A stretch of 11,944 nt of DNA. Source: Sphingobium sp. (GTDB lineage: Bacteria > Pseudomonadota > Alphaproteobacteria > Sphingomonadales > Sphingomonadaceae). The notes beneath the pieces were generated by a model that was not told where the DNA came from, made no database searches, and saw only the letters and a program-made list of their open reading frames with translations. The translations under genes and the position numbers were made by a program. Every line of letters starts with the position of its first letter. The stretch's first letter is position 1. The DNA lies in assembly GCA_030148625.1 (NCBI GenBank), contig JASBTC010000359.1, positions 1-11,944 on the forward strand, in the 5' to 3' direction. Of the stretch, positions 1 through 11,944 are shown piece after piece.

Positions 1-2
1 CC

Positions 3-275
3 TTCCGCCAGGCCTATGCGCTGCGCGAGCCTGTACCCGGCCCCTATCCGCGCGTCGTCTCGCCTGCCGAGCAGCTTGCGGCGCTCGCGGTGCCCGCGAC
101 CCCGCTGCCCCTATTGTCGATGGCCTCGGCACCCGCCCCGCGCGCCATGCCCATCGACGTCCAGCCGGCCTATGAAAGCAGCGGCCAACCGCTTGCCGGC
201 AGCCCGGCGGCGATCACGCCGGATTCGCAGATCCGCGAGGAATGGCGCGACAGCGGACGCTGGATCGCGCGTTAG
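3..275 (+). CDS. C-terminal part of an unrecognised protein (5' end outside window)
   Basis: An open plus-strand frame runs in from the left edge and ends at TAG 273-275, giving the last 90 residues of a longer protein. The tail is rich in Ala and Pro, with a low-complexity stretch (AALAVPATPLPLLSMASAPA), and ends in a charged segment (QIREEWRDSGRWIAR). I see no recognisable domain, catalytic motif or membrane segment. Codon use, with G or C in most third positions, fits a real coding frame. The competing frame at 16-282 is Arg/Pro-rich and looks like a shadow. The gene converges on hutU with 60 bp between the stops. Function cannot be stated from this fragment. Confidence 0.6.
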   Translation, partial: FRQAYALREPVPGPYPRVVSPAEQLAALAVPATPLPLLSMASAPAPRAMPIDVQPAYESSGQPLAGSPAAITPDSQIREEWRDSGRWIAR

Positions 276-297
276 AGTTTGATTGATCTCTCCTTTT

Positions 298-323
298 GTC
301 ATTCCCGCGTTAGCGGGAATGAC
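298..323. repeat. Intergenic hairpin of the ATTCCC-N8-GGGAAT type
   Basis: A perfect 11-bp inverted repeat (GTCATTCCCGC / GCGGGAATGAC) with a GTTA loop lies between the convergent stops of the upstream gene and hutU. No T-run follows on either strand, so it is not a textbook intrinsic terminator, although it could stop transcripts from both sides. Its core fits the ATTCCC-N8-GGGAAT pattern known from the neisserial dRS3 element. Similar palindromes are scattered through many proteobacterial genomes. Confidence 0.7.
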
Positions 324-335
324 ATGAAGGGCAGA

Positions 336-2003
336 TCAGCCCAGGATTCCCGGCAAGTCGAGCTCATGCTCGCGCGCGCAATCGAGCGCGATGTCGTAGC
401 CGGCATCGGCATGGCGCATCACGCCCGTCGCCGGGTCGTTCCACAGCACGCGTGCGAGCCGGCGGTCGGCATCCTCCGATCCGTCGCAGGTGATCACCAT
501 GCCTGAATGCTGGGAATAGCCCATGCCGACGCCGCCGCCATGATGCAGCGATACCCAGGTCGCGCCGCTCGCGGTGTTGAGCAGCGCATTGAGCAACGGC
601 CAGTCCGACACGGCATCGGATCCGTCGCGCATCGCTTCGGTCTCGCGATTGGGGCTGGCGACCGACCCTGAATCGAGATGGTCGCGCCCGATCACGATCG
701 GTGCCTTGAGCTCGCCCGTCCGCACCATTTCGTTGAAGGCCAGCCCGAGCCGGTGGCGGTCACCGAGCCCCACCCAGCAAATCCGCGCCGGCAGTCCCTG
801 GAACTGGATGCGCTCGCGCGCCATGTCGAGCCAGCGGTGGAGATGCGCATTGTCGGGCAGCAGCTCCTTCACCTTGGCGTCGGTGCGGTAGATGTCCTCG
901 GGATCGCCCGACAGCGCCGCCCAGCGGAACGGTCCGACGCCGCGGCAGAAGAGCGGGCGGATATAGGCGGGCACGAAACCGGGAAAGTCGAAGGCGTTGG
1001 CGACGCCCTGGTCCTTGGCGACCTGGCGGATATTGTTGCCGTAATCGACCGTGGCGACGCCGGCCGCCTGGAAATCGAGCATCGCCTGGACGTGCACGGC
1101 CATCGACGCGCTGGCGGCTTCGGTCACGGCCTGGGGATCGCGCTCGCGCGTCTCGAACCAGCGATCGAGCGTCCAGCCGGCGGGCAGATAGCCGTTGACC
1201 GGATCATGGGCGGAGGTCTGGTCGGTCAGCATGTCGGGCCGCACGCCGCGACGGTAGAGTTCTGGCAGGATCTCCGCGGCATTGCCGAGCAGGCCGACCG
1301 AGATTGCGCGCTTCTCCGCGCACGCCTGTTCGATCAAGGCCAGCGCCTCCTCGATCGTGTTCGCGGCATGGTCGAGATAGCGCGTCTTCAGCCGCATCTC
1401 GATCCGGCTCGGCTGGCATTCGATCGCGAGGCACGACGCGCCCGCCATCACTGCGGCCAGCGGCTGGGCGCCGCCCATGCCGCCGAGCCCGGCGGTCAGC
1501 AGCCAGCGACCCGACAGGTCGCCGCCGAAATGCTGGCGGCCCATGTCGACGAAGGTCTCATAGGTGCCCTGAACGATGCCCTGCGATCCGATATAGATCC
1601 ACGAACCCGCGGTCATCTGGCCGTACATCGCCAGGCCCTTGCGATCGAGCGCGTTGAAATGCTCCCAATTCGCCCAGGCGGGCACCAGATTCGAATTGGC
1701 GATCAGCACGCGCGGCGCATCGGCATGGGTGCGGAACACGCCGACGGGCTTGCCCGACTGGACGAGCAATGTCTCGTCATCCTCCAGCCGCTTCAGCGTC
1801 TCGACGATCCGGTCGAAGCTTTCCCAGTCGCGCGCGGCGCGGCCGATGCCGCCATAGACCACCAGCTCGTGCGGATTCTCGGCCACTTCGGCATCGAGAT
1901 TGTTCATCAGCATGCGCAGCGGGGCTTCGGTGAGCCAGCTTTTCGCATTGAGCGTGGTGCCGCGCGGGGCGGCGATCGAACGGCTATTGTCGAGACGGGT
2001 CAT
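336..2003 (-). CDS. hutU: Urocanate hydratase (urocanase)
   Basis: Urocanase adds water to urocanate to give 4-imidazolone-5-propanoate, the second step of histidine breakdown, using tightly bound NAD+ in the cytoplasm. The 555-residue product matches the usual length of about 555-560. It has the Gly-rich NAD-contact segment [12 protein letters not shown] at 172-183 and the family signature [10 protein letters not shown] at 401-410. Cys409 corresponds to the active-site Cys of the Pseudomonas putida enzyme. The C-terminal block [17 protein letters not shown] at 485-501 is also typical. The ATG at 2003 is chosen because it overlaps the hutG stop (ATGA) and is preceded by AGGGA six bases upstream. 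A longer frame to 2099 would only add hutG-overlapping residues unlike the family. It is the last gene of hutI-H-G-U, so it is probably translationally coupled to hutG. Confidence 0.97.
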
Positions 2004-2803
2004 TGGTCTTCCCTGGCAAAGTCGAGACATGAAGCGAGAATGGTGCGGAGCGTGGCCTGAAGCGGCGCGGCGACATGCGGGTCCCAGAGCGGCGGCCAAC
2101 GCCCAAGTTCATCGAGATAGCCGCGCATCGCGAGTTCCATCTGGATCGCATGGACGCCCTGTGCCGGATCGCCGTAATGGCGCGTGATCCAGCCGCCACG
2201 AAAGCGGCCATTGGTGACGCGGCTCATCCCGCTGGCATCGCATGCCGCTTCGACCGCCGCAGCGAGTGCGCCGTCGCAGGTCGCGCCGCCATCGGTGCCG
2301 ATGTTGAACTGGGGCAGTTCGCCGTCGAACAGGCGGGGGACATGGCTGCGGATCGAATGCGCGTCGTACAGGACGATGCGCGAGTGACTGGCGCGCAGCC
2401 GCGCGATCTCGGTGGAAAGCGCTGCGTGATAGGGATCGAAATAGGCCTGACGGCGGCGCGCGATCTCGGCCGTGTCGGGCGCGTGGCCGTCGCGGTAGAG
2501 CGGCTCTCCGTCGAAAGTCTCGGCCGGGCACAGGCCGGTGGTCGCCTGACCCGGATAGAGCGATGCGCCGGACGGATCGCGGTTCACATCGATCGCGGTG
2601 CGCGACACATGGGTGTGGATGATCGTCGCGCCGAGCGCGGCGGCGAAGCCGTAAAGCCGGTCGACATAAAAATCGGCGTCGCGCACGCCGAGCTGCGCAG
2701 AGAGGAGACCGGCGGCGACATCGTCGGGTATCCACGTGCCGGCATGCGGCACGCTGACGATCAGCGGCGCCGTGCCGCGTTCGATGGTGAGCCAGCTATC
2801 CAT
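2000..2803 (-). CDS. hutG: N-formylglutamate amidohydrolase (deformylase)
   Basis: This is the last step of the five-step histidine route: N-formylglutamate is hydrolysed to glutamate and formate. The 267-residue length is typical of the formylglutamate amidohydrolase family. Family-like segments are [11 protein letters not shown] (16-26), [18 protein letters not shown] (42-59), [20 protein letters not shown] (67-86), LYDAHSIRS (145-153) and GGWITRHYG (203-211). It is distinct from the ureohydrolase (arginase-like) proteins also called HutG in four-step pathways. The pairing with hutF agrees, since HutF makes its substrate. The ATG start at 2803 has no strong Shine-Dalgarno. Upstream, a 150-bp gap holding a palindromic repeat separates it from hutH, the only non-overlapping junction in this operon. 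Confidence 0.95.
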
Positions 2804-2814
2804 TGCACAGCTGC

Positions 2815-2940
2815 CGTTTGTCCCGAGCGAAGTCGAGGGACGCTCGCGCGATGTCCAACGTCCCTCGACTTCTCCGCGAAGTGGAGAAGTTTATCCTGAG
2901 CGCCTGCCTTGGCAGGCAGTCGAAGGGCTCGGGACAAACG
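2815..2940. repeat. Composite cloverleaf-like palindromic repeat inside the hut operon
   Basis: A perfect 14-bp outer inverted repeat (CGTTTGTCCCGAGC at 2815-2828, its complement at 2927-2940) encloses three further perfect stems. These are 12 bp (2831-2842 / 2859-2870), 8 bp (2868-2875 / 2883-2890, sharing three bases with the previous stem) and 7 bp with a TT loop (2902-2908 / 2911-2917). The GAGC...GTCGA arms resemble intergenic repeats seen in sphingomonads (from memory, not searched). It occupies most of the 150-bp gap between hutH and hutG and would be transcribed with them, so it may affect mRNA stability or the relative output of hutI-hutH versus hutG-hutU. Confidence 0.8.
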
Positions 2941-2953
2941 GAGGTAGTGGAGG

Positions 2954-4462
2954 TCATTCCGAAACCTCGGGCAGTCCAGTCAATGCCGCCACTTCCCCAC
3001 CCGTCACCAGCGCAGTCGCCGCCAACATGTCCGGGTGGAAATGCCGATCCTCGTCGAGCGTCGGCACCTGTGCCCGCAGCAATGTACGTGCCGATTCGAG
3101 CGTGGCGCTCGATGCCAGCGGCCTGTGGAAATCGCAGCCCTGCGCGGCCGCGAGATATTCGATGCCGAGAATGTTCGCCAGATTCTCCGCCATCGCCATC
3201 AGCCGGCGCGCGCCATGCGCGGCCATCGAGACATGATCTTCCTGATTGGCGGAGGTCGGGATCGAATCGACGCTTGCCGGATAGGCGCGTTGCTTGTTCT
3301 CCGAAACGAGCGCCGCGGCGGTCACCTGCGGGATCATGAAGCCGGAATTGAGGCCGGGGCGTGGTGTCAGGAACGCGGGCAGCCCCGACAGCGCCGGATC
3401 GACCAGCATCGCGATGCGCCGTTCGGCGATCGATCCGATCTCGCACAGCGCCAGCGCGACCATGTCGGCGGCGAAGGCGACGGGTTCGGCGTGGAAATTG
3501 CCGCCCGACAGCGCCTCGTCGGTCTCGGCGAAGATCAGCGGATTGTCGGAGACGCCATTGGCTTCGGTGCCCAATGTCACCGCCGCCTGACGCAACAGGT
3601 CGAGCACCGCGCCCATCACCTGGGGCTGGCAGCGCAGGCAATAGGGATCCTGCACCCGCTCGTCGCCTATGGCATGGCTGGCGCGGATCGCGGAACCCGC
3701 CATCAGCGTGCGAAGCGACGCCGCGGTCTCGATCTGGCCCTTGTGCCGGCGCAGCGTGTGGATGCGCGGATCGAACGGCGTGTCCGATCCCTTGGCCGCT
3801 TCGGTCGACAGCGCGCCGGTCACCAGCGCGGTCTGGAACAGCCGCTCCGCCTCGAACAGCCCGGCCAGCGCATAGGCGCACGAGAATTGCGTGCCGTTGA
3901 GCAGCGCCAGCCCTTCCTTGGGGCCGAGCGTCAGCGGCGCGAGGCCGGCATCGGCCAGTGCCTGCGCGGCCGGCTTGTCGCCGATCCGGCCGACGCCGAT
4001 CATCGCCGCGGCAAGATGGGCGAGCGGGGCGAGGTCGCCCGATGCGCCGACCGATCCCTGGGCGGGAATGACGGGAATCAGATCCTTGGCCAGCATCGCT
4101 TCGAGCAAGGCGATCGTCGCCGGACGTACGCCCGATGCGCCCTGGGCAAGGCTCGCCAGCTTCAATGCCATCATCAGCCGCGCGACCGGCACGGGCATCG
4201 GCGCGCCGACGCCGGCGGCGTGGCTGAGCACGATGTTGCGCTGGAGCGTTTCGAGATCGGCGTCGCCGATCTTCACGCTGGCAAGCTTGCCGAAACCGGT
4301 ATTGATCCCATAGACCGGCTCGTGCCGCGCCAGGATGCGTTCGACCGCTGCGGCGCTCGCGGCGATCTTCGCATGCGCACTGTCGTCGAGCACGGGCAAG
4401 GCGCCGCGATAAATGGCGCGCCAATCGGAAAGTGGAACTTGGCCGGGAACAAGGGTCAGCAT
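2954..4462 (-). CDS. hutH: Histidine ammonia-lyase (histidase)
   Basis: Histidase removes ammonia from L-histidine to give urocanate, the committed first step and the source of the inducer of hut genes in other bacteria. The 502-residue product carries the [14 protein letters not shown] signature at 136-149. Ala140-Ser141-Gly142 cyclise to the MIO electrophile. Residues known from the P. putida enzyme are present: Tyr51 (YGINTGFG), His81, Tyr274, Arg277, Phe323 and Glu408. The ATG start overlaps the end of hutI by 7 nt, and AAAAGG lies about six bases upstream, inside hutI. The gene is cotranscribed with hutI. Downstream comes the palindromic repeat and then hutG. Nothing suggests loss of function or the phenylalanine or tyrosine lyase members of the family. 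Confidence 0.97.
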
Positions 4463-5670
4463 GATTTGCCTTTTCTCACGCGGTCATGAAGGGGATTGAA
4501 GCCGATGCGGTAGATCAGCTCGGCTGGGCGCTCGATGTCCCAGATTGCGAGATCGCAGGACTTGCCGGGCTCGAGCGTGCCGATTTCCGCCTGCAGCCCG
4601 AGCGCGCGCGCGCCCTCGCGGGTGACGCCCGCCAGGCATTCGTCGACGGTCAGGCGGAACAGGGTCGCAGCCATGTTCATAGCCAGCAGCAGCGAAGTCA
4701 TCGGCGAAGTGCCGGGGTTGCAGTCGGTCGCGATCGCCATCGGCACGCCCGCTTCGCGCAGGCCGACAATCGGCGGCAGCCGGGTTTCGCGCGTGAAATA
4801 ATAGGCGCCGGGCAGCAGCACCGCGACCGTGCCCGCCTCCGCCATCGCGGCGATGCCCGCGGTGTCGAGATGTTCGAGATGATCGGCCGACAATGCGCCG
4901 AAACCTGCCGCGAGCGCGGCGCCATGGCTGTTCGACAATTGCTCGGCATGGAGCTTGACCGGCAGGTCGTGGTCGCGCGCCGCCGCGAACACGCGCTCGA
5001 CCTGTTCGGGGGTGAAGCCGATCGTCTCGCAGAATGCGTCGACCGCGTCGGCCAGCCCCTGCGCGGTGATTGCCGGGATCATCTCGTCGGTGACATGATC
5101 GATATAGCCGTCGGCATCGCCCGCATATTCGGGGGGCAATGCGTGGGCGCCGAGGAATGTGGTGACGACGCGGACATCGCGCAGCCTGCCGAGCGCGCGC
5201 GCGGCGTGGAGCATGTCGAGTTCGGCATCGAGCGAGAGGCCGTAGCCCGACTTGATCTCGATCGTGGTCAGCCCTTCGGCGATCAGCGCGTCGAGCCGGG
5301 GGAGTGACTGGGCGACCAGGCCGTCCTCGCCGGCCGCGCGCGTCGCGGCCATCGTCGAGACGATCCCGCCGCCGCTGCGCGCAATTTCTTCATAAGAGGC
5401 ACCGGCCAGCCGGCGCTCGAATTCATGCGCGCGGTCGCCGCCATGGACGAGATGGGTGTGGCAATCGATCAGGCCCGGCGTGATCCAGCGACCCTGGCAA
5501 TCGATCGTCTCGATCGCGTCGATCGCCACCACGGGACCGGCATGGACGATGAGTCCGTCGCGGCACGCGACCATGCCCGATTCGACGACGCCCAATGCGC
5601 CGCCGGCGTCCGACGACGCCATCGTCGCCAGCCGGGCATTGGTCCAGACACGGTCCGCTTGAATCACCAT
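4456..5670 (-). CDS. hutI: Imidazolonepropionase
   Basis: This is the third step: the imidazolone ring is hydrolysed to N-formimino-L-glutamate. The product is a metal-dependent amidohydrolase of 404 residues, the usual size. The metal ligands fit the family: His71 and His73 ([10 protein letters not shown]), His241 (KLHAEQ), His264 (ADHLEH) and Asp316 (ATDCNPG), with Glu244 as likely catalytic acid. [19 protein letters not shown] at 85-103 is very typical of HutI. I chose ATG 5670; a TTG at 5688 would add six residues. Neither has a convincing Shine-Dalgarno, so a leaderless mRNA is possible. It heads hutI-H-G-U and lies only 46 bp from the divergent hutF start, with the presumed HutC operator between them. 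Confidence 0.96.
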
Positions 5671-5680
5671 GCGCTTAAAC

Positions 5681-5709
5681 TTGATCAATCCGATGAATAT
5701 GTCTAGTCA
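5681..5709 (+). promoter_or_regulatory. Possible hutF promoter, leaderless
   Basis: TTGATC (5681-5686) and TAGTCA (5704-5709) are 17 bp apart. The expected transcription start then falls at or next to the A of ATG 5717, which would make the hutF mRNA leaderless and explain the missing Shine-Dalgarno. The -10 match is weak. On the minus strand TAGACA (5705-5700) could be the hutI -35 element, with its -10 at 5682-5677, giving a start near ATG 5670. The call rests mainly on geometry. Confidence 0.3.
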
Positions 5710-5714
5710 TATTC
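5695..5714. promoter_or_regulatory. Candidate HutC operator (20-bp palindrome)
   Basis: GAATATGTCTAGTCATATTC is an inverted repeat with 18 of 20 positions symmetric; only the bases flanking the central CTAG break symmetry. It lies in the 46-bp gap between divergent hutI and hutF, ending three bases before the hutF ATG. The TGT...ACA-like core (TGTCTAGTCA) resembles the TGTATATACA core reported for Pseudomonas HutC, and hutC is the second gene of the plus-strand operon. One operator here could repress both operons by blocking RNA polymerase. Binding itself is inferred. Confidence 0.65.
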
Positions 5715-5716
5715 GC

Positions 5717-7066
5717 ATGACGACGCTCTGGCTTGAATCCGCACTGCTTCCCACCGGCTGGACCGACGGCGTTCGCGTCGCGATCGCCGGGGGTGTGATC
5801 GAACATGTCGGGCGCGCCGATCCGCAGCCAGGCGACGAGCGCTACGCGATCGGCATTCCCGGCCTGTGCAACGTGCACAGCCACGGATTCCAGCGCGGCA
5901 TGGCGGGCCTGTCGGAACATCGCGGCACGGCCGGCGCGGACGACGATTTCTGGAGCTGGCGCGAAGTGATGTACCGGTTTCTCGACCGGCTTTCCCCCGA
6001 CGATGTCGAGGCGATCACCGCGCTGGCCTTTGCCGAGATGCTGGAGGGTGGATATACTCGCGTCGGCGAGTTCCACTATCTTCACAATGATCCCGCGGGC
6101 GGGCGTTACGCCGATCCCGCCGAAATGGCGGCGCGCATCGTCGCCGCGTCGGATACGACGGGCATCGGCCTGACCTTGCTGCCGGTCTTCTACGCGCATA
6201 GCGATTTCGGCGGACTGCCGCCCAAGCACGGCCAGCGGCGCTTCATCAACGATCTCGACGGTTTTGCCGCTTTGCTCGATGCCTCGGCCGGGCTGCTGAG
6301 CGGCGACGCGCGGCTCGGCATTGCGCCGCACAGCCTGCGTGCGGTGACCGGTGAGGAACTGGCGGCATTGCTCGCGATGCGACCGACCGGACCTGTCCAT
6401 ATCCATGCCGCCGAGCAGGTCGGCGAAGTGCAGGCGAGCATCGCCTTCTCCGGCGCACGGCCGGTCGAATGGCTGCTCGACAATGTCGGGCTCGATGCGC
6501 GCTGGTGCCTCGTCCATGCCACGCATCTGAACGAGGCGGAGGTCGATCGGTTGGCGGCGAGCGGCGCGGTGGCGGGGTTGTGCCCGGTCACCGAGGCCAA
6601 TCTCGGCGACGGCATCTTTCCCGCTCTGCGCTATCTCGCCGCCGGCGGGCGGATCGGCACAGGCACCGATTCGAACATCATGATCGCCGCGGCCGACGAG
6701 CTTCGTGCGCTCGAATACAGCCAGCGCCTCGCCCATCGCGGCCGCAACATGCTTGCCGGGGACGACCGCTCGACCGCGCGGCGGCTGTTCGATGCGACGC
6801 TCGACGGTGGCGCCCGGGCGCTTGGCGTGACGGGCGGGATCGTCGCGGGCGCGTCCGCCGACATCGTGTCGCTCGATGCGAATCATCTCTCGCTGGTCGA
6901 ACGGACCGGCGACGCGCTGCTCGACGGATGGATCTTTGCCGGCCGGACCGGTGCGATCGACTGTGTGTGGCGCGCGGGCCGCAAAATGGTCGCAAATGGT
7001 CGTCATGTCGCCGCCGACGCGATCGCTGCGCGTTACCGGAAGACTTTGGCACGGATCCTTGCATGA
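5717..7066 (+). CDS. hutF: Formimidoylglutamate deiminase
   Basis: The enzyme removes the imino group of N-formimino-L-glutamate, giving N-formyl-L-glutamate and ammonia, so histidine carbon leaves as formate rather than through the four-step formimidoylglutamase route. The 449-residue product is an amidohydrolase with metal ligands His54 and His56 (NVHSHGFQRGMAGL), His230 (HIHAAEQ), His267 (VHATH) and Asp318 (GTDSN), and likely catalytic Glu233. DDFWSWREVMYRF at 76-88 and RKMVANGRH at 422-430 are typical of HutF. ATG 5717 fits the family N-terminus. In-frame ATGs at 5669, 5693 and 5699 would place coding sequence inside the operator and add residues unlike the family. No Shine-Dalgarno precedes any of them. 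The stop overlaps the hutC start (ATGA). Confidence 0.95.
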   Translation: MTTLWLESALLPTGWTDGVRVAIAGGVIEHVGRADPQPGDERYAIGIPGLCNVHSHGFQRGMAGLSEHRGTAGADDDFWSWREVMYRFLDRLSPDDVEAITALAFAEMLEGGYTRVGEFHYLHNDPAGGRYADPAEMAARIVAASDTTGIGLTLLPVFYAHSDFGGLPPKHGQRRFINDLDGFAALLDASAGLLSGDARLGIAPHSLRAVTGEELAALLAMRPTGPVHIHAAEQVGEVQASIAFSGARPVEWLLDNVGLDARWCLVHATHLNEAEVDRLAASGAVAGLCPVTEANLGDGIFPALRYLAAGGRIGTGTDSNIMIAAADELRALEYSQRLAHRGRNMLAGDDRSTARRLFDATLDGGARALGVTGGIVAGASADIVSLDANHLSLVERTGDALLDGWIFAGRTGAIDCVWRAGRKMVANGRHVAADAIAARYRKTLARILA

Positions 7067-7755
7067 CGCTGGACGAACGGATCAGGGGCGATATCGAGGA
7101 CCGGATCCGATCGGGCGCATTGAAGCCGGGCGACCGGATTCCCTTCGAACATGAACTCGTTGCCGATTATGGCTGTGCGCGCGCGACGGTCAGCAAGGCA
7201 CTGACCGCGCTCAGCCGCGCCGGCCTGATCGAGCGCCGCCGGCGGGCGGGGTCATTCGTCGCGCATCCGCATATCCAGTCGCCGGTGCTCGACGTGCCCG
7301 ATATCGGTCAGGTGATCGCGGCGCGGGGCGACGCCTATCATTTCACGCTGGCCGGGCGGCGCGTACGCCGGCGGCAGGCGGCCGATCCGCTCGACGGTGC
7401 CGGTCAGGTGATCGTGCTCGATGGCGTGCACCATGCCGCGGGGGAGCCGTTCGGCCATGAGTCGCGGCTGATCGCGCTCGACGCGGTGCCCGATGCGCGC
7501 GACATCGATTTTTCGGTGGTCGCGCCGGGATCCTGGCTGCTCGATCATGTCGCATGGAGCGATGCGCGCCATCGGATCGCAGCGGTTCCCGCCGAACCGC
7601 AGATCGCGCGCATGCTGGGCATCGCGCCAGGCACGGCCTGCCTCCAGCTCGAGCGCTGGACCTGGCGGATGGGGGCCGCGATCACCTGGGTACGGCAGAC
7701 ATTTCCCGGCGATCGCTACGATCTGGTCGCGGAATTCACGCCGCAGAGCCGCTGA
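7063..7755 (+). CDS. hutC: HutC, GntR-family repressor of histidine utilisation
   Basis: The 230-residue product has an N-terminal GntR winged helix at about residues 3-66, with a typical ELVADYGCARATVSKALTALSRAGLIERR helix-turn-helix core split around residues 31-59. A C-terminal UTRA-type effector domain spans about 85-228. This architecture defines the HutC subfamily. In characterised bacteria HutC binds hut promoters and is released by urocanate. Position agrees: it is translationally coupled to hutF by ATGA and the operon begins at the palindromic operator, so it probably represses itself. The Shine-Dalgarno is weak (GGAT), as expected for a coupled gene. It ends 24 bp from the convergent thioesterase stop. 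Another UTRA regulator could look similar, but the locus makes HutC clear. Confidence 0.93.
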   Translation: MTLDERIRGDIEDRIRSGALKPGDRIPFEHELVADYGCARATVSKALTALSRAGLIERRRRAGSFVAHPHIQSPVLDVPDIGQVIAARGDAYHFTLAGRRVRRRQAADPLDGAGQVIVLDGVHHAAGEPFGHESRLIALDAVPDARDIDFSVVAPGSWLLDHVAWSDARHRIAAVPAEPQIARMLGIAPGTACLQLERWTWRMGAAITWVRQTFPGDRYDLVAEFTPQSR

Positions 7756-7779
7756 ACGGACGGGCCGTAAAAGAGCCGG

Positions 7780-8541
7780 TCAGATGAACAGCGCGATGCT
7801 TTGCATGCCGCTCGCGATCGGCACGCCATCGGCGTTCCAGATCGTCATGACCTGGCTGGAGCAACCGTTGCGCGCATAATCCGCGACCGATCGCATCAGC
7901 CACCAGCCATCGCGCGTCTCGGGCGCCAGGGTCAGCAGGTTGACGAGCCAGGTCATCGAACTGATCGGCCCCGTCTGCGTCGCGAGTGCCAAAGCGGCGG
8001 GCGGCAGGGCGTCGCCGACCGTGGCGATTTCGGTCATGGGGTCGATACCGTCGCGATCCTTGAGCCGCACCCACCGCGTCCAGTCCGCCCCGATCCGCGG
8101 CATCTCGATCACGTCGAAATTGTGGATGAAGCTCGGAGCGCTGACGGGCAATATCGATGGCGTCGCCGGGGTGGGCAGCGGTCCCGGCGCGGAAAGCGCG
8201 ACATGATCGATATGCGACGGTTGGTCGTGCATGAAGACGAAGATCGCCGTGAGCCCCAGTCCGGCCTCGCTCGTCACATCGGCGCGGACGAACGCCGCGG
8301 TGCGGCCGCGGCGCAGCAATGTCACGCTTGCCGTCACCCGGCCGGCAAGGGGCCCGACGAATGAGACCTGAGCCGTTCTGAGCGGGGGCAGGTCGGGTGC
8401 CACGCGTTGGGCAGCCTGTAGCGCGAGCGCGTGCGACAGGCCGCCATAGGCGGTGCGCCCCTGCATCCAGCCCGGAGGAATCTCGAAGCACAGCCCGCCG
8501 GGCGTTTCGGTGGCGGCGTTCAATATGGCAGCAAGCGACAT
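7780..8541 (-). CDS. TesB-like acyl-CoA thioesterase family protein
   Basis: The 253-residue protein resembles the double hot-dog thioesterases (TesB-like). The N-terminal hot-dog contains GWMQGRTAYGGLSHALALQA (24-43), the conserved Gly-Arg-x-x-x-Gly-Gly loop. The first half continues with an ARG-rich beta region (LLRRGRTAAFVRADV, 75-89). The second half holds SSMTWLVNLL (194-203), GWWLMRSVADYARNGCSSQ (212-230) and the closing IWNADGVPIASGMQSIALF. Such proteins hydrolyse acyl-CoA thioesters in the cytoplasm, but the substrate here is unknown. There is no signal peptide. ATG 8541 is the natural start, with only a weak ribosome site. It converges with hutC and has no sequence-based tie to histidine catabolism. 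Confidence 0.8.
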   Translation of the reverse strand: MSLAAILNAATETPGGLCFEIPPGWMQGRTAYGGLSHALALQAAQRVAPDLPPLRTAQVSFVGPLAGRVTASVTLLRRGRTAAFVRADVTSEAGLGLTAIFVFMHDQPSHIDHVALSAPGPLPTPATPSILPVSAPSFIHNFDVIEMPRIGADWTRWVRLKDRDGIDPMTEIATVGDALPPAALALATQTGPISSMTWLVNLLTLAPETRDGWWLMRSVADYARNGCSSQVMTIWNADGVPIASGMQSIALFI

Positions 8542-8651
8542 GGCACTGCGTTAAAGCGGTCCGCGATGCGATGGAATTGCCGACGGCGCACGATGGCGCC
8601 GCGCACGCAATTTCTGGACGATCGGCAGCGCGATGCTCCATGCGGCCCGAG

Positions 8652-8683
8652 CCAAAAAAATGGCGCGCCGAAGCGCGCCATTT
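8652..8683 (-). terminator. Intrinsic terminator of the glycine-zipper gene
   Basis: Read on the minus strand, AAATGGCGCGC pairs perfectly with GCGCGCCATTT around a TTCG tetraloop. The 3' arm runs into seven U residues (A-tract 8654-8660 on the plus strand). It begins 23 bp past the stop of the 8706-9011 gene. The orientation of the U-tract assigns it to that gene, although the hairpin is symmetrical. Confidence 0.85.
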
Positions 8684-8705
8684 CTTCAACGATGTGTGCC
8701 GAGTT

Positions 8706-9011
8706 TCAGCGGCAGCGGCGCTTGCTGTCGATTTCCTTGCCGATCAGCGCGCCAGCGGCGGCGCCCAGGATCGTGCCGGTGGCGCGGTCGCCGCGCGTAT
8801 CGATCGCGCGGCCGGCCAGCGCACCGCCGACGCCGCCGACGATCAGGCCGGTCGTGCCGTTGGACTTGCGGCAATACATGCGGCCGTCGCGACCGCGCCA
8901 TTCGCGATAGCTGCTATGACGCTTCTTTGCCGACGCGCCGTCGGTCGGGACGACGAAGCTGGCGGGTATCGCAAGCGAGGCGGCACCAATGGCGAGCATG
9001 AGAGTACGCAT
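8706..9011 (-). CDS. Secreted glycine-zipper (17-kDa-antigen-like) protein
   Basis: A 101-residue exported protein. Residues 1-28 form a signal peptide (Arg2, hydrophobic 4-22, likely cleavage after GASA). A basic, aromatic segment follows (KKRHSSYREWRGRDGRMYCRKS split at 29-50). Two Gly/Ala-rich zipper stretches come next, LIVGGVGGALAGRAID (56-71) and TGTILGAAAGALIGKEID (78-95), typical of Rick_17kDa_Anti/glycine-zipper domains that insert in or associate with the cell envelope. Cys47 and Cys100 could form a disulfide. There is no lipobox, so it does not look like a lipoprotein. ATG 9011 is preceded by AAGGGA seven bases upstream. The longer frame to 9098 has no such site and would bury the signal peptide. 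The family's exact role is unknown. Confidence 0.85.
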   Translation of the reverse strand: MRTLMLAIGAASLAIPASFVVPTDGASAKKRHSSYREWRGRDGRMYCRKSNGTTGLIVGGVGGALAGRAIDTRGDRATGTILGAAAGALIGKEIDSKRRCR

Positions 9012-9023
9012 GACTATTTCCCT

Positions 9024-9037
9024 TTGATTTAGATCAA
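9024..9037. promoter_or_regulatory. Perfect FNR/CRP-superfamily box (TTGAT-N4-ATCAA)
   Basis: TTGATTTAGATCAA matches the FNR/Anr/FixK consensus at all ten specified positions. Its centre (9030.5) is 13-26 bp upstream of the minus-strand glycine-zipper start, too close to activate that gene but suited to repress it. It lies 41.5 bp before position 9072, where a plus-strand start for the cupin gene could fall after the -10-like TATCGC (9061-9066). No FNR-type regulator is in the window, so binding is inferred. Confidence 0.5.
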
Positions 9038-9137
9038 TGACGCGTTGACAACGTGGGGAGTATCGCGCCGGTTGCATGAACCTCATACAACAATACAACC
9101 TGTTGAATCACAATGTTTCTTTTTTTGGGATGACGAC

Positions 9138-9575
9138 ATGGAAGACGTCGCACGACGCATCATCGATCGCCTCGGACTGGAGCCTCATCCCGAAGGCGGC
9201 TGGTTTCGGGAGACCTGGCGCGCCGATGCGGCGGTGGCCGGTGCCCGCGCGGCCGGCACCGCGATCCATTTCCTGCTCGAACATGGCCAGCGTTCGCATT
9301 GGCACCGGGTGGACGCGACCGAGATCTGGCTGTGGCATGCCGGCCATCCGCTCACGCTCTCGATCGCGGAAAGCGACACCGGCCCCGTGCGCGGCATCCG
9401 GCTGGGTGGCGATGTGCTGAACGGCGAAAACCCGCAGGGAATCGTGCCGGCGCATGCATGGCAGGCCGCGGAGGCCATGGACGGCTGGGCATTGGTGAGC
9501 TGCACGGTGACACCGGGTTTCGAATTTGCGGGTTTCGCGCTCGCGGCGCCGGACTGGGCGCCGGGGCGGCACTGA
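9138..9575 (+). CDS. DUF985/cupin_5 family protein
   Basis: The 145-residue product follows the DUF985 (cupin_5) pattern almost throughout: LGLEPHPEGGWFRETWR (12-28), TAIHFLLEHGQRSHWHRVDATEIWLWHAGHPL split over 41-72, LGGDVLNGENPQGIVPAHAWQAA around 89-111, and SCTVTPGFEFAGFALA (121-136). This is a small cytoplasmic cupin beta-barrel. His54, His56 and Glu62 sit where a cupin metal or ligand site would be. The family's biochemical role is not settled, and a sugar-epimerase-like or binding role has been considered for structural relatives. ATG 9138 is preceded by GGGA about nine bases upstream, after a T-tract at 9114-9126. The frame upstream lacks family sequence. It reads divergently from the glycine-zipper gene across 126 bp containing the FNR-type box. 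Confidence 0.88.
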   Translation: MEDVARRIIDRLGLEPHPEGGWFRETWRADAAVAGARAAGTAIHFLLEHGQRSHWHRVDATEIWLWHAGHPLTLSIAESDTGPVRGIRLGGDVLNGENPQGIVPAHAWQAAEAMDGWALVSCTVTPGFEFAGFALAAPDWAPGRH

Positions 9576-9634
9576 TCGCTTCATCGCCGGTACAGGCGCA
9601 TTGGCGCTGAATGGCGCGCGCAAGGAGACATGCC

Positions 9635-10030
9635 ATGCGTCCGATCTGCGCCTTCGTTCTCGCTGCCTTTCTCACGCCCACTCTTCTCACGTCCACGCCG
9701 ATCTTCGCCCAGGCTCCGGCACGGACCGAGATCATTCTCGCCGATTTCAGCTTCACGCCGGCATCGCTGCATCTGAAGGCGGGGCAGCCGGTGACGCTCC
9801 ATTTCGTGAATCGCGGCTCGGGCGGGCATAATTTCGCCGCACCCGAATTCTTCGCCGGGGCGCGGATCGATCCCGCGAGCATGGCCGCCGTGAAGCGCGG
9901 CAAGGTCGAACTTGCCAAGGGGGCCAGCGCCGACGTGACGCTGGTACCGGCCAGGGGCCGTTACCCTGCGCACTGTTCGCATCTGTTGCACAGCGGCTTC
10001 GGAATGAAGGGCGATGTCGTCGTCGATTAG
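9635..10030 (+). CDS. Exported cupredoxin-like copper protein
   Basis: The 131-residue product starts with a Sec signal peptide (MRPICAFVLAAFL..., likely cut near 25-26, IFA-QA). A single cupredoxin beta-sandwich of about 100 residues follows. Blue-copper ligand candidates are His65 (SGGHNF) and the C-terminal loop Cys114-x4-His119-x4-Met124 (YPAHCSHLLHSGFGMKG). Such periplasmic proteins carry electrons or bind and deliver copper; the partner is unknown. A strong Shine-Dalgarno AAGGAG at 9622-9627, seven bases before ATG 9635, fixes the start; an upstream in-frame ATG at 9611 lacks one. The Cys-to-His spacing is longer than plastocyanin's and resembles azurin and multicopper-oxidase loops. 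His116 is an extra potential ligand. The non-coding repeat begins only 10 bp after the stop. Confidence 0.87.
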   Translation: MRPICAFVLAAFLTPTLLTSTPIFAQAPARTEIILADFSFTPASLHLKAGQPVTLHFVNRGSGGHNFAAPEFFAGARIDPASMAAVKRGKVELAKGASADVTLVPARGRYPAHCSHLLHSGFGMKGDVVVD

Positions 10031-10040
10031 AGGCGTACTT

Positions 10041-10409
10041 TTTTCCCCGATTTCCCCGTTATCCACAGCCAGAAGGGGCTTTGCGCGACTCGGCATTCCA
10101 TGAAAGCTTGTGTCTGCGGACGAGAGAGATCGGACGGCGACGGACGAAGCCTCCTCACCTGCAAGGCCACTGTGGATGCCGATTTTCCTTCGGGAATTGG
10201 GGCTGGAAACGGCGGTTCGGCGACGGACCAAGCGTCGGGATGCAAGCGCGAAAGTGCATGCGGAACGCGATTTGAGGATGGAGCCATCGGTGGTCTCCGC
10301 TTTCGGGTGGGGGCGCCAAACCGCCGAAGCGCGGGCGGCTGGCCCTTCGGGTCGTGCACGTCGGGTTCGGCAGCGTGGGGGCTGGCAGCGATGCCGGCCC
10401 CCATTTCGC
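10041..10409 (+). repeat. Copy 1 of a tandem ~370-395-bp non-coding element; candidate structured RNA
   Basis: This copy begins with three 9-bp units (TTTTCCCCG, ATTTCCCCG, TTATCCACA; 10041-10067). It shares with copy 2 the blocks GCGACTCGG (10085-10093), a TTCCATGAAAGCTTGTG-like stretch (10096-10112), GAAGCCTC (10146-10153), a C(UUCG)G hairpin (10185-10196) and the final GNRA hairpin. Within this copy ATCCACAG (10061-10068) can pair with CTGTGGAT (10170-10177). No credible open frame covers it. It starts 10 bp after the cupredoxin stop, so it might be a 3' UTR of that gene or a separate transcript. I do not recognise a known RNA family. Confidence 0.6.
10376..10403 (+). terminator. GNRA-capped terminator-like hairpin ending copy 1
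   Basis: TGGGGGCTGGCA (10376-10387) pairs with TGCCGGCCCCCA (10392-10403) over 12 bp, with one U-G wobble and a GCGA loop, followed by TTT. On the minus strand the wobble would become an A-C mismatch, so plus-strand RNA is favoured. The U-run is short, so it may be a structural domain instead of an efficient terminator. Confidence 0.55.
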
Positions 10410-10453
10410 ATGCGCACGATCCGCAATCCTGAAAATTTCGAATCGCCGGGTGC

Positions 10454-10481
10454 TTGCACCTTACGAAAGATGCGCTAATCG
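10454..10481 (+). promoter_or_regulatory. Weak promoter candidate upstream of copy 2
   Basis: TTGCAC (10454-10459) and TAATCG (10476-10481) are 16 bp apart. This would start RNA near 10488, inside a 9-bp hairpin (10484-10492 / 10496-10504, one G-U pair), about 50 nt before copy 2. The hexamers are imperfect, so the call rests on position. Confidence 0.2.
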
Positions 10482-10537
10482 CGCCGGGTCGTCCCACGAC
10501 TCGGGCTGGTGCTTGGCCATCTGAAATGCCGCCGCAC

Positions 10538-10932
10538 TTATCCCCGTTTTCCCCGTTATCCACAGGCTTGGAAGCCGATTTTCCGCTTGGTGCGACTCGG
10601 TTTTCATGACAGCTTTGTGACGTGGAAGAGAGAGTTCCGCGGGAAACCAAAGAAGCCTCGATCAACCACAAGCCGCTGTGAAAGCACAGGATTTTCTTCG
10701 GAAAGTGGCTGAGTGGAAGCAGATGGTAGGCGCCGGAAGCGGTGTAAACGAGCCGAAACGCAAGTGGAGGCGGCGCGACACCCCAAGAAGGAGCCGGTGA
10801 ACGACCTGGAGGTTTCGGCTGAAGGGTGGAAAGCACCGACGCCTGAGCGAGAATGGATTGCCGCAAGGTTGAGACGTTCGCAAAGCTCGGCGCAGTGGGG
10901 GTTGGCAGCAATGCCAGCCCCCATTTTCGTTT
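10538..10932 (+). repeat. Copy 2 of the tandem non-coding element; candidate structured RNA
   Basis: This is a diverged second copy about 497 bp downstream of copy 1 in the same orientation. It starts with TTATCCCCG, TTTTCCCCG, TTATCCACA (10538-10564). It keeps GCGACTCGG (10592-10600), the CATGAcAGCTTTGTG stretch (10605-10619), GAAGCCTC (10652-10659), a C(UUCG)G hairpin (10693-10704) and the terminal GNRA hairpin. A local hairpin CTGTG-AAAG-CACAG (10676-10689) differs from copy 1. The middle third aligns poorly between copies. The same order of short conserved blocks separated by variable sequence is what related structured RNAs look like. No supported open frame covers it. Confidence 0.6.
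10896..10923 (+). terminator. GNRA-capped terminator-like hairpin ending copy 2
   Basis: TGGGGGTTGGCA (10896-10907) pairs with TGCCAGCCCCCA (10912-10923) with one U-G wobble and a GCAA loop, followed by TTTTCGTTT. Compared with the copy 1 hairpin, the wobble has moved by one pair and the loop stays GNRA, so pairing is preserved on plus-strand RNA. The T-rich tail is better than that of copy 1. Confidence 0.6.
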
Positions 10933-10994
10933 GGGATGTGTGTGCTGTGTTGGCATTGCCTCGGAGGCGGACAGGAAACGCGATTTCCGCCGAA

Positions 10995-11103
10995 CCGTTT
11001 GGGCTGAGCTTGTCGAAGCCCTGTCCTTGTTCGGCACTGGCGCAAAAGAAAAGCAGGGGTTGGCCTGCGGCCGACTTCGTCCCGGCAGGCCTAGTCCGAA
11101 CGG
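10995..11103. repeat. Second composite palindromic repeat, related to the one in the hut operon
   Basis: An outer 8-bp stem (CCGTTTGG 10995-11002 / CCGAACGG 11096-11103, one wobble) encloses GGGCT...AGCCC (11001-11005 / 11017-11021) around GAGCTTGTCGA, and GGCCTGC...GCAGGCC (11062-11068 / 11085-11091). An alternative stem joins CCGAAC 10990-10995 with GTTCGG 11029-11034. The CGTTTG ends, the GAGC...GTCGA arm and the GGCAGGC arm match the architecture of the 2815-2940 element, but pairing is less perfect. It fills the gap before the stop of the minus-strand FAD monooxygenase gene. Confidence 0.5.
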
Positions 11104-11133
11104 TGCTGTTTGAGCCTTGAGGGCGACCAGTCG

Positions 11134-11944
11134 CTAAACCATCATCCCCTGAAGCAGCTTCGGCAGATCGCCCGATTCGCCGCGCGCCTCGGCCATGAAG
11201 CGTGCCTTGAGCGGCGGTATCCGCTGCACCGCGCCCAGCCCGAAGCGGCGGATCGCCGAAGCCGTGCGCCCCTTCAGCCCGAACAGCCGGGTCAATCCGT
11301 CGGTGGAGGCTGCGACCATGAAGGTATCGAGGCTGCGCCAGCGCTCATAGCGCGCAAGGATCTGCGCATCGCCCAGGTCGAGCCCTAGCCGCGCGCCCGC
11401 GACGATCACTTCGGCCAGTGCCGCGGCGTCGCGGAAACCGAGATTGAGCCCCTGGCCGGCGATCGGGTGGATGCCGTGCGCCGCATCGCCGACCAGTGCG
11501 AGCCGATCGCTCGTGATATGCGCGGCATGGTGGAAGCCGAGCGGGTAGCTCGATCGCGGCGCCGCGGGTGAGAGACGGCCGAGCAGACCGCCCATCTGTT
11601 TCTCCGCCTCGGCCAGGAAAGCGCGATCGGACAATTTGAGCATGCCCGCCGCATCCTTGCGCGCGACCGACCAGACGATCGCCGATCGTCCCAGCCCCGG
11701 CGTCGCCGACAGCATCGGCAGCAGCGCGAACGGTCCGGACGGATAGAAGATCTCATAGGCGACATTGCCGTGCGGCTTTTCGTGATCGAAGGCGGAGACG
11801 ATCGCGACATGATCATATTGCCAGCGCGCGACATTGATCCCGGCTGCCTCGCGCATCGGCGAGTTGCGCCCTTCCGCCGCGACCAGCAGCGGCGCGGTGA
11901 GAACCCGCCCATCTTCCAGCACCACGGTCACGCCGTGCGGGCCG
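11134..11944 (-). CDS. UbiH/UbiF/COQ6-family FAD-dependent hydroxylase (N-terminus outside window)
   Basis: The last 269 residues of a flavoprotein monooxygenase are visible; the frame stays open to the right edge, so the N-terminal FAD-binding fold is missing. AAEGRNSPMRE just inside the window is the A-x-G-x-x-S-x-x-R motif of this family. LVGDAAHGIHPIAGQGLNLGFRDAAAL (about 11496-11416) is the GD motif plus the ubiquinone-hydroxylase signature. A helical C-terminal region follows and ends GMMV. Members hydroxylate the aromatic ring of ubiquinone precursors at the inner membrane. Which ring position this one modifies cannot be read from the fragment, so no symbol is given. The stop at 11134 faces the non-coding region. 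Confidence 0.9.
   Translation of the reverse strand, partial: GPHGVTVVLEDGRVLTAPLLVAAEGRNSPMREAAGINVARWQYDHVAIVSAFDHEKPHGNVAYEIFYPSGPFALLPMLSATPGLGRSAIVWSVARKDAAGMLKLSDRAFLAEAEKQMGGLLGRLSPAAPRSSYPLGFHHAAHITSDRLALVGDAAHGIHPIAGQGLNLGFRDAAALAEVIVAGARLGLDLGDAQILARYERWRSLDTFMVAASTDGLTRLFGLKGRTASAIRRFGLGAVQRIPPLKARFMAEARGESGDLPKLLQGMMV

Follow-up and report, generated by a model that had tools for sequence, protein, structure and literature searches.

Tandem candidate genes for a structured non-coding RNA with a replication-type promoter in Sphingobium

What is encoded by the two diverged tandem repeats that separate a cupredoxin gene from a monooxygenase gene in Sphingobium sp.? The repeats lie in contig JASBTC010000359.1 of GenBank assembly GCA_030148625.1, positions 1 to 11,944 of which we call the window, at ~10041-10406 (copy 1) and ~10538-10927 (copy 2), both on the plus strand. 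A preliminary description, made from the sequence alone, presented them as two copies of an unrecognised, paired non-coding element of ~370-395 base pairs (bp). We find it probable that each copy is a gene in its own right, encoding a structured, trans-acting non-coding RNA of the Sphingomonadales with an output tied to replication. Judged by sequence comparison, the copies belong to a gene family with a common promoter and terminator anatomy, a conserved structure and a non-coding nature; the best supported step is that of a structured-RNA gene with a replication-type promoter.

The tandem, same-strand arrangement with a shared order of parts is borne out by the sequence, by a MAFFT alignment of the copies (77% mean column identity over 426 columns) and by a tandem pair in Sphingomonas colocasiae. 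Each copy consists of three tandem 9-mers ending in TTATCCACA (exact in both), a spacer, CTTKG-GCGACTCGG, a CATGA-AGCTT block, ~300 bp of T-poor sequence (17% T in copy 1, 14% in copy 2) and a GNRA-loop hairpin followed by T. GAAGCCTC and UUCG-loop hairpins are present in both. The element as described is real, although the RNA predicted for the window copies takes up just ~290-310 nucleotides (nt) of it and the first three blocks appear to be promoter DNA. The parts are as follows.

10041-10067, plus strand: copy 1 array of DnaA-box-like 9-mers, TTTTCCCCG-ATTTCCCCG-TTATCCACA (from sequence)
10079-10109, plus strand: copy 1 promoter, with -35 region CTTTGCGC, GACTC (a GANTC site) at 10087-10091 and extended -10 TGA-AAGCTT at 10101-10109 (from alignment with relatives)
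10116-10406, plus strand: copy 1 predicted RNA, start placed ~7 nt past the -10 by inference (from sequence comparison)
10375-10406, plus strand: copy 1 intrinsic terminator GTGGGGGCTGGCAGCGATGCCGGCCCCCATTT, a 12-bp GNRA-loop hairpin then T (from sequence)
10538-10564, plus strand: copy 2 array of DnaA-box-like 9-mers, TTATCCCCG-TTTTCCCCG-TTATCCACA (from sequence)
10585-10615, plus strand: copy 2 promoter, with -35 region CTTGGTGC, GACTC (a GANTC site) at 10594-10598 and extended -10 TGA-CAGCTT at 10607-10615 (from alignment with relatives)
10622-10927, plus strand: copy 2 predicted RNA with four-way-junction core, start likewise predicted (from sequence comparison)
10730-10893, plus strand: copy 2 four-way-junction core (positions by eye)
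10730-10734 and 10889-10893: copy 2 P1, GCGCC with GGCGC
10735-10736, 10741-10745 and 10778-10782: copy 2 P2, GG, bulge AAGC, then GGUGU with ACACC, followed by CC
10785-10789: copy 2 linker AAGAA
10790 onwards, 10834-10838 and 10841-10844: copy 2 P3, GGAGC (one bulged A needed), CACCG and GCCU
10845-10848 and 10885-10888: copy 2 P4, GAGC with GCUC
10895-10927, plus strand: copy 2 intrinsic terminator GTGGGGGTTGGCAGCAATGCCAGCCCCCATTTT, a 12-bp GNRA-loop hairpin then T (from sequence)

Copy 1 is, on this comparison, a diverged tandem paralogue that lacks the GGCGCCGGAAG and CCARGAAGG core motifs and keeps promoter and terminator.

The S. colocasiae locus (L012) holds the two copies as a tandem ahead of the same monooxygenase gene; within the species-genome collection, 28 stretches contain the 18-mer TTTCCCCGTTATCCACAG. 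Copy 1 is 88% and copy 2 94% identical to its counterpart there, whereas local alignments across the copies (copy 1 with the S. colocasiae copy 2, and the reverse) give 61-63%. Because of this difference, we place the duplication before the split of the two species, with each copy retained. Between the species, substitutions affect 16/271 positions of the copy 2 RNA (5.9%) and 26/263 of the copy 1 RNA (9.9%), the terminators at 3/37 and 1/33, respectively, and the flanks at 27-35% (45/129 in the spacer, 54/203 downstream).

Related copies, left by the preliminary description to a wider search, are common. A blastn search with copy 2 matched at least 72 of 298 genomes of the family (E ≤ 1e-3; family draw centred on the genome of L012), often as two blocks ~300-750 bp apart, one 5′ and the other 3′ at the terminator; two candidates were scored per genome, so these match and copy counts are lower bounds. 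A covariance model of the RNA 3′ end built from 19 sequences (R1), which leans on the terminator, matched 175 of 396 Sphingomonadales genomes at E ≤ 0.01 and 113 at E ≤ 0.001 (counted by hand) under strict filters with 10 candidates scored per genome. At E ≤ 0.001 it matched 3 of 385 genomes in a draw of the class that is poor in Sphingomonadaceae (at least G001, G017, G044, G094 and G106): G001, plus G017 and G106, two genomes that the family draw includes as well. Within the reach of R1, the family appears confined to Sphingomonadales.

A single R1 match was found in 161 of the 175 matching genomes, and by our own reading two copies occur in at least 5 of the 72 blastn-positive genomes, three of these having them in tandem (G001, G171 and G218). 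Because two copies are unusual among genomes, the pair is a lineage-specific duplication, and the notion that pairing is intrinsic to the element has to be given up. These counts also bear on whether the tandem copies betray a mobile or repeated element, such as a repetitive extragenic palindromic (REP) or miniature inverted-repeat transposable element (MITE) type or a group II remnant. We give that reading almost no credence: besides the usual single match, the element keeps its place in the sister species, 72,556 plasmid records yielded only 30-45-base matches, and the element has its own promoter and terminator and shows compensatory changes. A different arrangement was seen at G189:C1:1041847-1044772 (L049 covers the first element), where two elements ~2.8 kb apart face each other on opposite strands.

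In aligned relatives the 5′ parts of the element comprise, 5′ to 3′, 9-mers (TTATCCCCG, ATATCCCCG, TTATCCACA), a spacer, a -35-like CTTGG/CTTTG, C-GACTC-G and an extended -10, which lies ~17 bp past the -35 (by eye) and consists of TGA plus a hexamer whose positions -11 and -7 are A and T, respectively. The 5′ islands (the TTATCCACA array, GCGACTCGG and CATGA-AGCTT) thus appear to be promoter DNA conserved as DNA, not as RNA structure. The selection on RNA (or DNA) structure that had been proposed for the conserved islands holds for the RNA, which covaries as described below, and not for these three, which are conserved as DNA sites.

GANTC is the methylation site of CcrM and is read by GcrA. 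From 100 sites we removed five with spacing below 18 bp and three judged false (L112, L153 and L169). The remaining 92 aligned promoters have GACTC (88) or GAATC (4), preceded by C in 97% and followed by G in 77%, and a fitted extended -10 with G-14 in 96%, A-11 in 84% and T-7 in 98%; this constancy is partly by design, the set having been pre-filtered on GA[ACT]TC and the -10 offset picked for best fit. GACTC also stands at the same place in 10/10 elements of eight loci whose 3′ match alone reached E ≤ 1e-9 (L046, L048, L053, L054, L057, L058, L059 and L062; six also had a 5′ match spanning GACTC). At 40 loci found by R1 alone, a strict search located box, GANTC and extended -10 together at 13 on the correct strand and at none on the reverse; within 1 kb, a box was present at 29 and GANTC with an extended -10 at 16. 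The joint promoter pattern occurs in 38 of 396 order genomes (39 matches, ~8 of which look unrelated by eye), compared with 5 matches of the reversed pattern, and in 2 of 385 class genomes.

GcrA (PF07750) is encoded in 40/40 genomes of relatives examined. The lower strand of CGACTCG, CGAGTCG, fits the Caulobacter GcrA-site pattern YGAKTCK (PMC7987155). GANTC is reported in all putative ctrA promoters of Sphingomonadales analysed (PMC8116508). An extra GTCCCCGTTATCCACAGGC...CTGTGGAT site was noticed at L042:1505-1525 (G003), in the metagenome-assembled genome (MAG) that carries L001; no terminator was seen after it.

The 9-mers, which we take to match the DnaA box, show 0/28 substitutions relative to S. 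colocasiae in copy 2 and 1/27 in copy 1 (the latter scored over 10042-10068), and the copy 2 promoter shows 2/35 (10583-10617). Distances from TTATCCACA to GANTC fall into classes over the 100 sites: 18-19 (7 sites), 26-30 (60), 38 (1), 45-47 (14) and 56-57 bp (11), with 7 others; the spacer is 28-29 bp in 57, and the corresponding window stretches are 10059-10091 and 10556-10598. Helical phasing of the boxes was rejected, the steps between classes being ~9 rather than 10.5 bp; steps of ~9 bp suggest instead a register of box units.

Such an array could be the functional part in itself, titrating or loading DnaA in the manner of datA/DARS loci, with the RNA a by-product or a means of keeping the site open. 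This reading is favoured by the strong conservation of the 9-mers, which few stretches of the locus match, and by the register, which suggests box units. It does not account for an RNA body conserved with compensatory changes, which would be unexpected in a by-product, or for 9-mers, -35, GANTC and -10 standing in a fixed order that points into the RNA, and we rate it as distinctly improbable. The 18-mer TTTCCCCGTTATCCACAG also stands upstream of dnaB-like genes (L002 and L009) and of a kinase/pyrophosphorylase gene (L010 and L023), the latter presumably a neighbour of oriC; these genes were named by eye. At L002:4148-4175 and L009:4849-4875, in two alphaproteobacterial MAGs, a similar array ending in TTTCCCCGTTATCCACAGG lies upstream of the dnaB-like (replicative helicase) gene.

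Terminators were recognised downstream of 74 of the 92 promoters; after two cases with misassigned ends were dropped (L047 and L058_-1242), 72 predicted RNAs remained, with lengths of 280-740 nt (median 399; counted from 32 nt after the GANTC start). Longer versions span 757-770 bp from box array to terminator in Sphingomonas sp. BN140010 (L021) and an alphaproteobacterial MAG (L001). Length varies strongly within the family: RNAs above 650 nt have the same promoter and terminator type as those of 300 nt (L001, L082, L086, L087, L092, L094-L097, L127, L129, L132 and L139).

We considered whether these predicted RNAs might encode protein. Three open reading frames (ORFs) over the window copies had no match to a Pfam family (the protein search was limited to Pfam), the copy 2 substitutions are spread evenly over codon positions (6/5/5) and copy 1 differs from its S. 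colocasiae counterpart by four 1-nt insertions or deletions. Protein coding was rejected for either strand on these grounds, in agreement with the earlier remark that no credible ORF is present. At least one fully open frame exists in antisense in 44/72 RNAs and in sense in 18/72, with two antisense frames in each window copy; we put these down to composition, T making up only 13% of the RNA.

Composition also raises the question of a CsrA sponge. The CsrB/RsmZ sponge RNAs resemble the family in length, terminator and GGA-rich purine bias, and a GGA-rich RNA of ~300-400 nt could bind CsrA in the same way. Here purines make up 59% and GGA occurs 17.5 times per RNA compared with 15.4 in shuffles, but this excess is just 1.14-fold and AGGA is not enriched (0.95). 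Unlike the hosts of CsrB/RsmZ, the relatives lack the presumed partner: CsrA (PF02599) was found in 0/40 genomes of relatives and in 3/14 control genomes. CsrA is unlikely to be the partner in the relatives tested, and a sponge of this kind is very improbable.

Folding and covariation support selection on RNA structure. Including the terminator, the 72 RNAs have a mean folding energy 4.0 standard deviations (s.d.) below dinucleotide shuffles. Without it the mean z is -2.24, with 37/72 under -2, compared with -1.27 for reverse complements (21/72 under -2) and -0.84 for upstream flanks. In eight clade alignments, each of 3-9 sequences and with the terminator, the RNAalifold consensus energy is 7-15 s.d. 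below 20 column shuffles in 8/8. Covarying pairs are clearly more numerous than in shuffles in three clades (30 vs 5.3 ± 2.1, 24 vs 6.9 and 15 vs 1.9) and moderately so in three more (21 vs 10.2, 20 vs 11.8 and, for the window clade, 9 vs 4.2 ± 1.5).

A core is common to copy 2 with its clade and to two other clades. Its four-way junction is closed by P1 (GCGCC/GGCGC); P2 consists of GG, a bulged AAGN and a stem; an AAGAA linker leads to P3 (GGGC-CGN/..CG-A-CGCCU); P4 (GAGC/GCUC) follows, and the 3′ strand of P1 comes just before the terminator. In copy 2, P3 requires one bulged A (GGAGC instead of GGGC). Over 27 distinct RNAs, 146/162 cells of the P2 stem are paired, compared with 108.1 ± 4.5 when the 3′ strands are re-dealt, a value reached by 0/5000 shuffles; A-U, U-A, G-C and C-G occur at the same positions. 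The P3 upper stem has 40/55 cells paired vs 34.2 ± 2.3 (27/3000 shuffles reach this), weaker support than that of P2. The cells come from alignments of related clades and are not independent events. With the clade alignments and P2, the covariation that the preliminary description had sought in a wider alignment is strong.

The core also bears on how the RNA might act. In Alphaproteobacteria, cell-cycle small RNAs (sRNAs) target dnaA, gcrA or ctrA messages (PMC4414408, PMC8959179), and the RNA could likewise silence cell-cycle mRNAs by base pairing, as EcpR1 or CcnA does. The conserved unpaired stretches of the core are, however, short and purine-only (AAGN, AAGAA), and the loops differ between clades; we consider base pairing unlikely. 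With the conserved unpaired bases of the core limited to short purine runs in the junction, a bound protein is more likely than antisense pairing.

Several observations weigh against a structured RNA gene under replication-type control. As to structure, 14/72 upstream flanks also pass z -2, and without the terminator the window copies on their own (z -0.07 and -0.36) are no more stable than shuffles; because they do not stand out alone, the structural case rests on comparison. Two clades hardly exceed their shuffles in covarying pairs (3 vs 1.7 ± 1.4 and 20 vs 15.6 ± 3.1). Both four-way-junction motifs are present in only 28/72 RNAs (27 distinct), P1 never breaks, the base of P3 gives no signal, P4 hardly varies (226/3000), and the P1 3′ strand could pair instead with CGCC of P3, as in our first model. 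As to membership, 8 of the 40 loci found by R1 alone show neither box nor promoter upstream, and part of the 175 R1 genomes may be look-alike terminators. As to control, 5/24 bases are substituted relative to S. colocasiae between GACTC and -10 in copy 1, and the presumed origin lies at varying distances from the element. A clade of 13 loci (L074-L076, L088, L157, L159, L163, L166, L173, L175, L178, L183 and L184) keeps TTATCCACA and the extended -10, but 12/13 are without GANTC in the core promoter; GAATC lies upstream of the DnaA box in 12/13, and the clade amounts to a natural rewiring experiment.

Taking the points on both sides together, we still favour a gene for a structured RNA tied to replication. 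We infer its transcription, methylation dependence, response to DnaA, timing and action in trans as follows. RNA polymerase would start at the conserved promoter, which has a CcrM-type GANTC in its -35/-10 region and DnaA-box-like 9-mers just upstream. The transcript, ~300 nt here and up to ~740 nt in relatives, would end at the strong intrinsic terminator and adopt a many-armed fold; in copy 2 and related RNAs, the 3′ half would form the P1-P4 four-way junction beside the terminator, carrying the fixed unpaired purines of the AAGN bulge and AAGAA linker. Its output would most likely be tied to replication-fork passage and to DnaA/GcrA activity, and the RNA would most likely work in trans on replication or cell-cycle control, by binding protein or as a scaffold. 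CcrM methylation and GcrA are known to tie promoter activity to the passing fork, with DnaA as the initiator (PMC8116508, PMC5988900). A bolder extension, which we hold only tentatively and as a possibility on the unlikely side, is that the family forms a new class of large RNA and a dedicated read-out of chromosome replication across the order, produced in a burst after fork passage from a promoter that combines the DnaA 9-mer array with the CcrM site, and binding a cell-cycle or replication protein through its core. If so, the RNA would itself belong to the machinery that controls replication rather than being an antisense regulator.

How does the family compare with known RNAs? Consistent with the earlier impression of an unrecognised family, Rfam 15 gave 0 matches at or above the gathering score in the window or in 20 relatives; five sub-threshold hits in the window (e.g., mir-4449, sR14 and asX1) are far below their cut-offs. 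A family supported by covariation is thus missing from Rfam 15. No transfer RNA or transfer-messenger RNA was found in the window. No description of the family was found in the titles and abstract openings examined in the open-access literature. The Zms sRNAs of Zymomonas (PMC7064620) were considered as well and may be homologous.

CcnA of Caulobacter crescentus is similar in being an alphaproteobacterial non-coding RNA (ncRNA) in the DnaA/GcrA/CcrM/CtrA circuit with DnaA boxes at its gene. It is described as 182 nt long, encoded at the replication origin, with three weak DnaA boxes and a CtrA box at its promoter and end, and acting on the ctrA and gcrA 5′ untranslated regions (UTRs) (PMC8959179). 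Unlike CcnA, the element would give RNAs of ~280-740 nt from various loci, has its boxes upstream of a GANTC promoter and contains a four-way junction. Nor does it share an origin location: in 16 usable genomes of the 21 with the marker gene (G001, G004 and G024 were dropped because of another contig, G047 and G729 for an incomplete contig) it lies 0.019 to 0.383 of the genome length, median 0.155, from this gene, which we take to represent the replication origin. The slight lean towards the origin side has P ~0.05 on the assumption of independent genomes, which does not hold. EcpR1 of Sinorhizobium meliloti is a trans-acting sRNA that targets dnaA and gcrA and is conserved in different families of one order; it differs in having a dominant form of 101 nt with two stem-loops, in belonging to Rhizobiales and in its control by the stringent response (PMC4414408). 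The likeness to CcnA and EcpR1 appears to be one of theme.

6S RNA (RF00013) is likewise a long structured RNA with about one copy per genome; it was rejected, as the window gave no RF00013 hit and 7/8 genomes have a separate 6S-like hit, below the gathering score. OLE, GOLLD and ROOL are large, multi-arm, non-coding and conserved in structure as well. They differ in that Rfam gives no match to the element, and presumably also in promoter logic and host range. We place the family with the cell-cycle-linked ncRNAs of Alphaproteobacteria, with a reasonable chance that it forms a separate class. For many large structured RNAs nothing points to the pathway in which they act; here the promoter provides a hint, and an RNA layer in the timing of Sphingomonadales replication becomes a directly testable question.

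The genomic setting of the family is variable. No fixed neighbour gene emerged from the flanking ORFs of 73 elements (only L047 dropped), which form 94 clusters among 144 ORFs, some of them spurious, such as those antisense to the window copies. As candidate partners, a uvrD-like gene upstream of 12 elements in one clade and an argG-like gene upstream of 8 in another (both by eye) were rejected, neighbours being otherwise scattered. The window itself is sphingomonad DNA with histidine-utilisation genes at its left (named by eye from ORFs), and the copies are flanked by two genes.

9611-10030, plus strand: cupredoxin gene (Pfam)
11134-11931, minus strand: flavin adenine dinucleotide (FAD)-binding monooxygenase gene (Pfam)

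REP-like palindromic intergenic repeats (e.g., GTCCCGAGCGAAGTCGAGGGAC and CATTCCCGCGTTAGCGGGAATG) were seen by eye at 285-330, 2817-2945 and 10995-11110 of the window.

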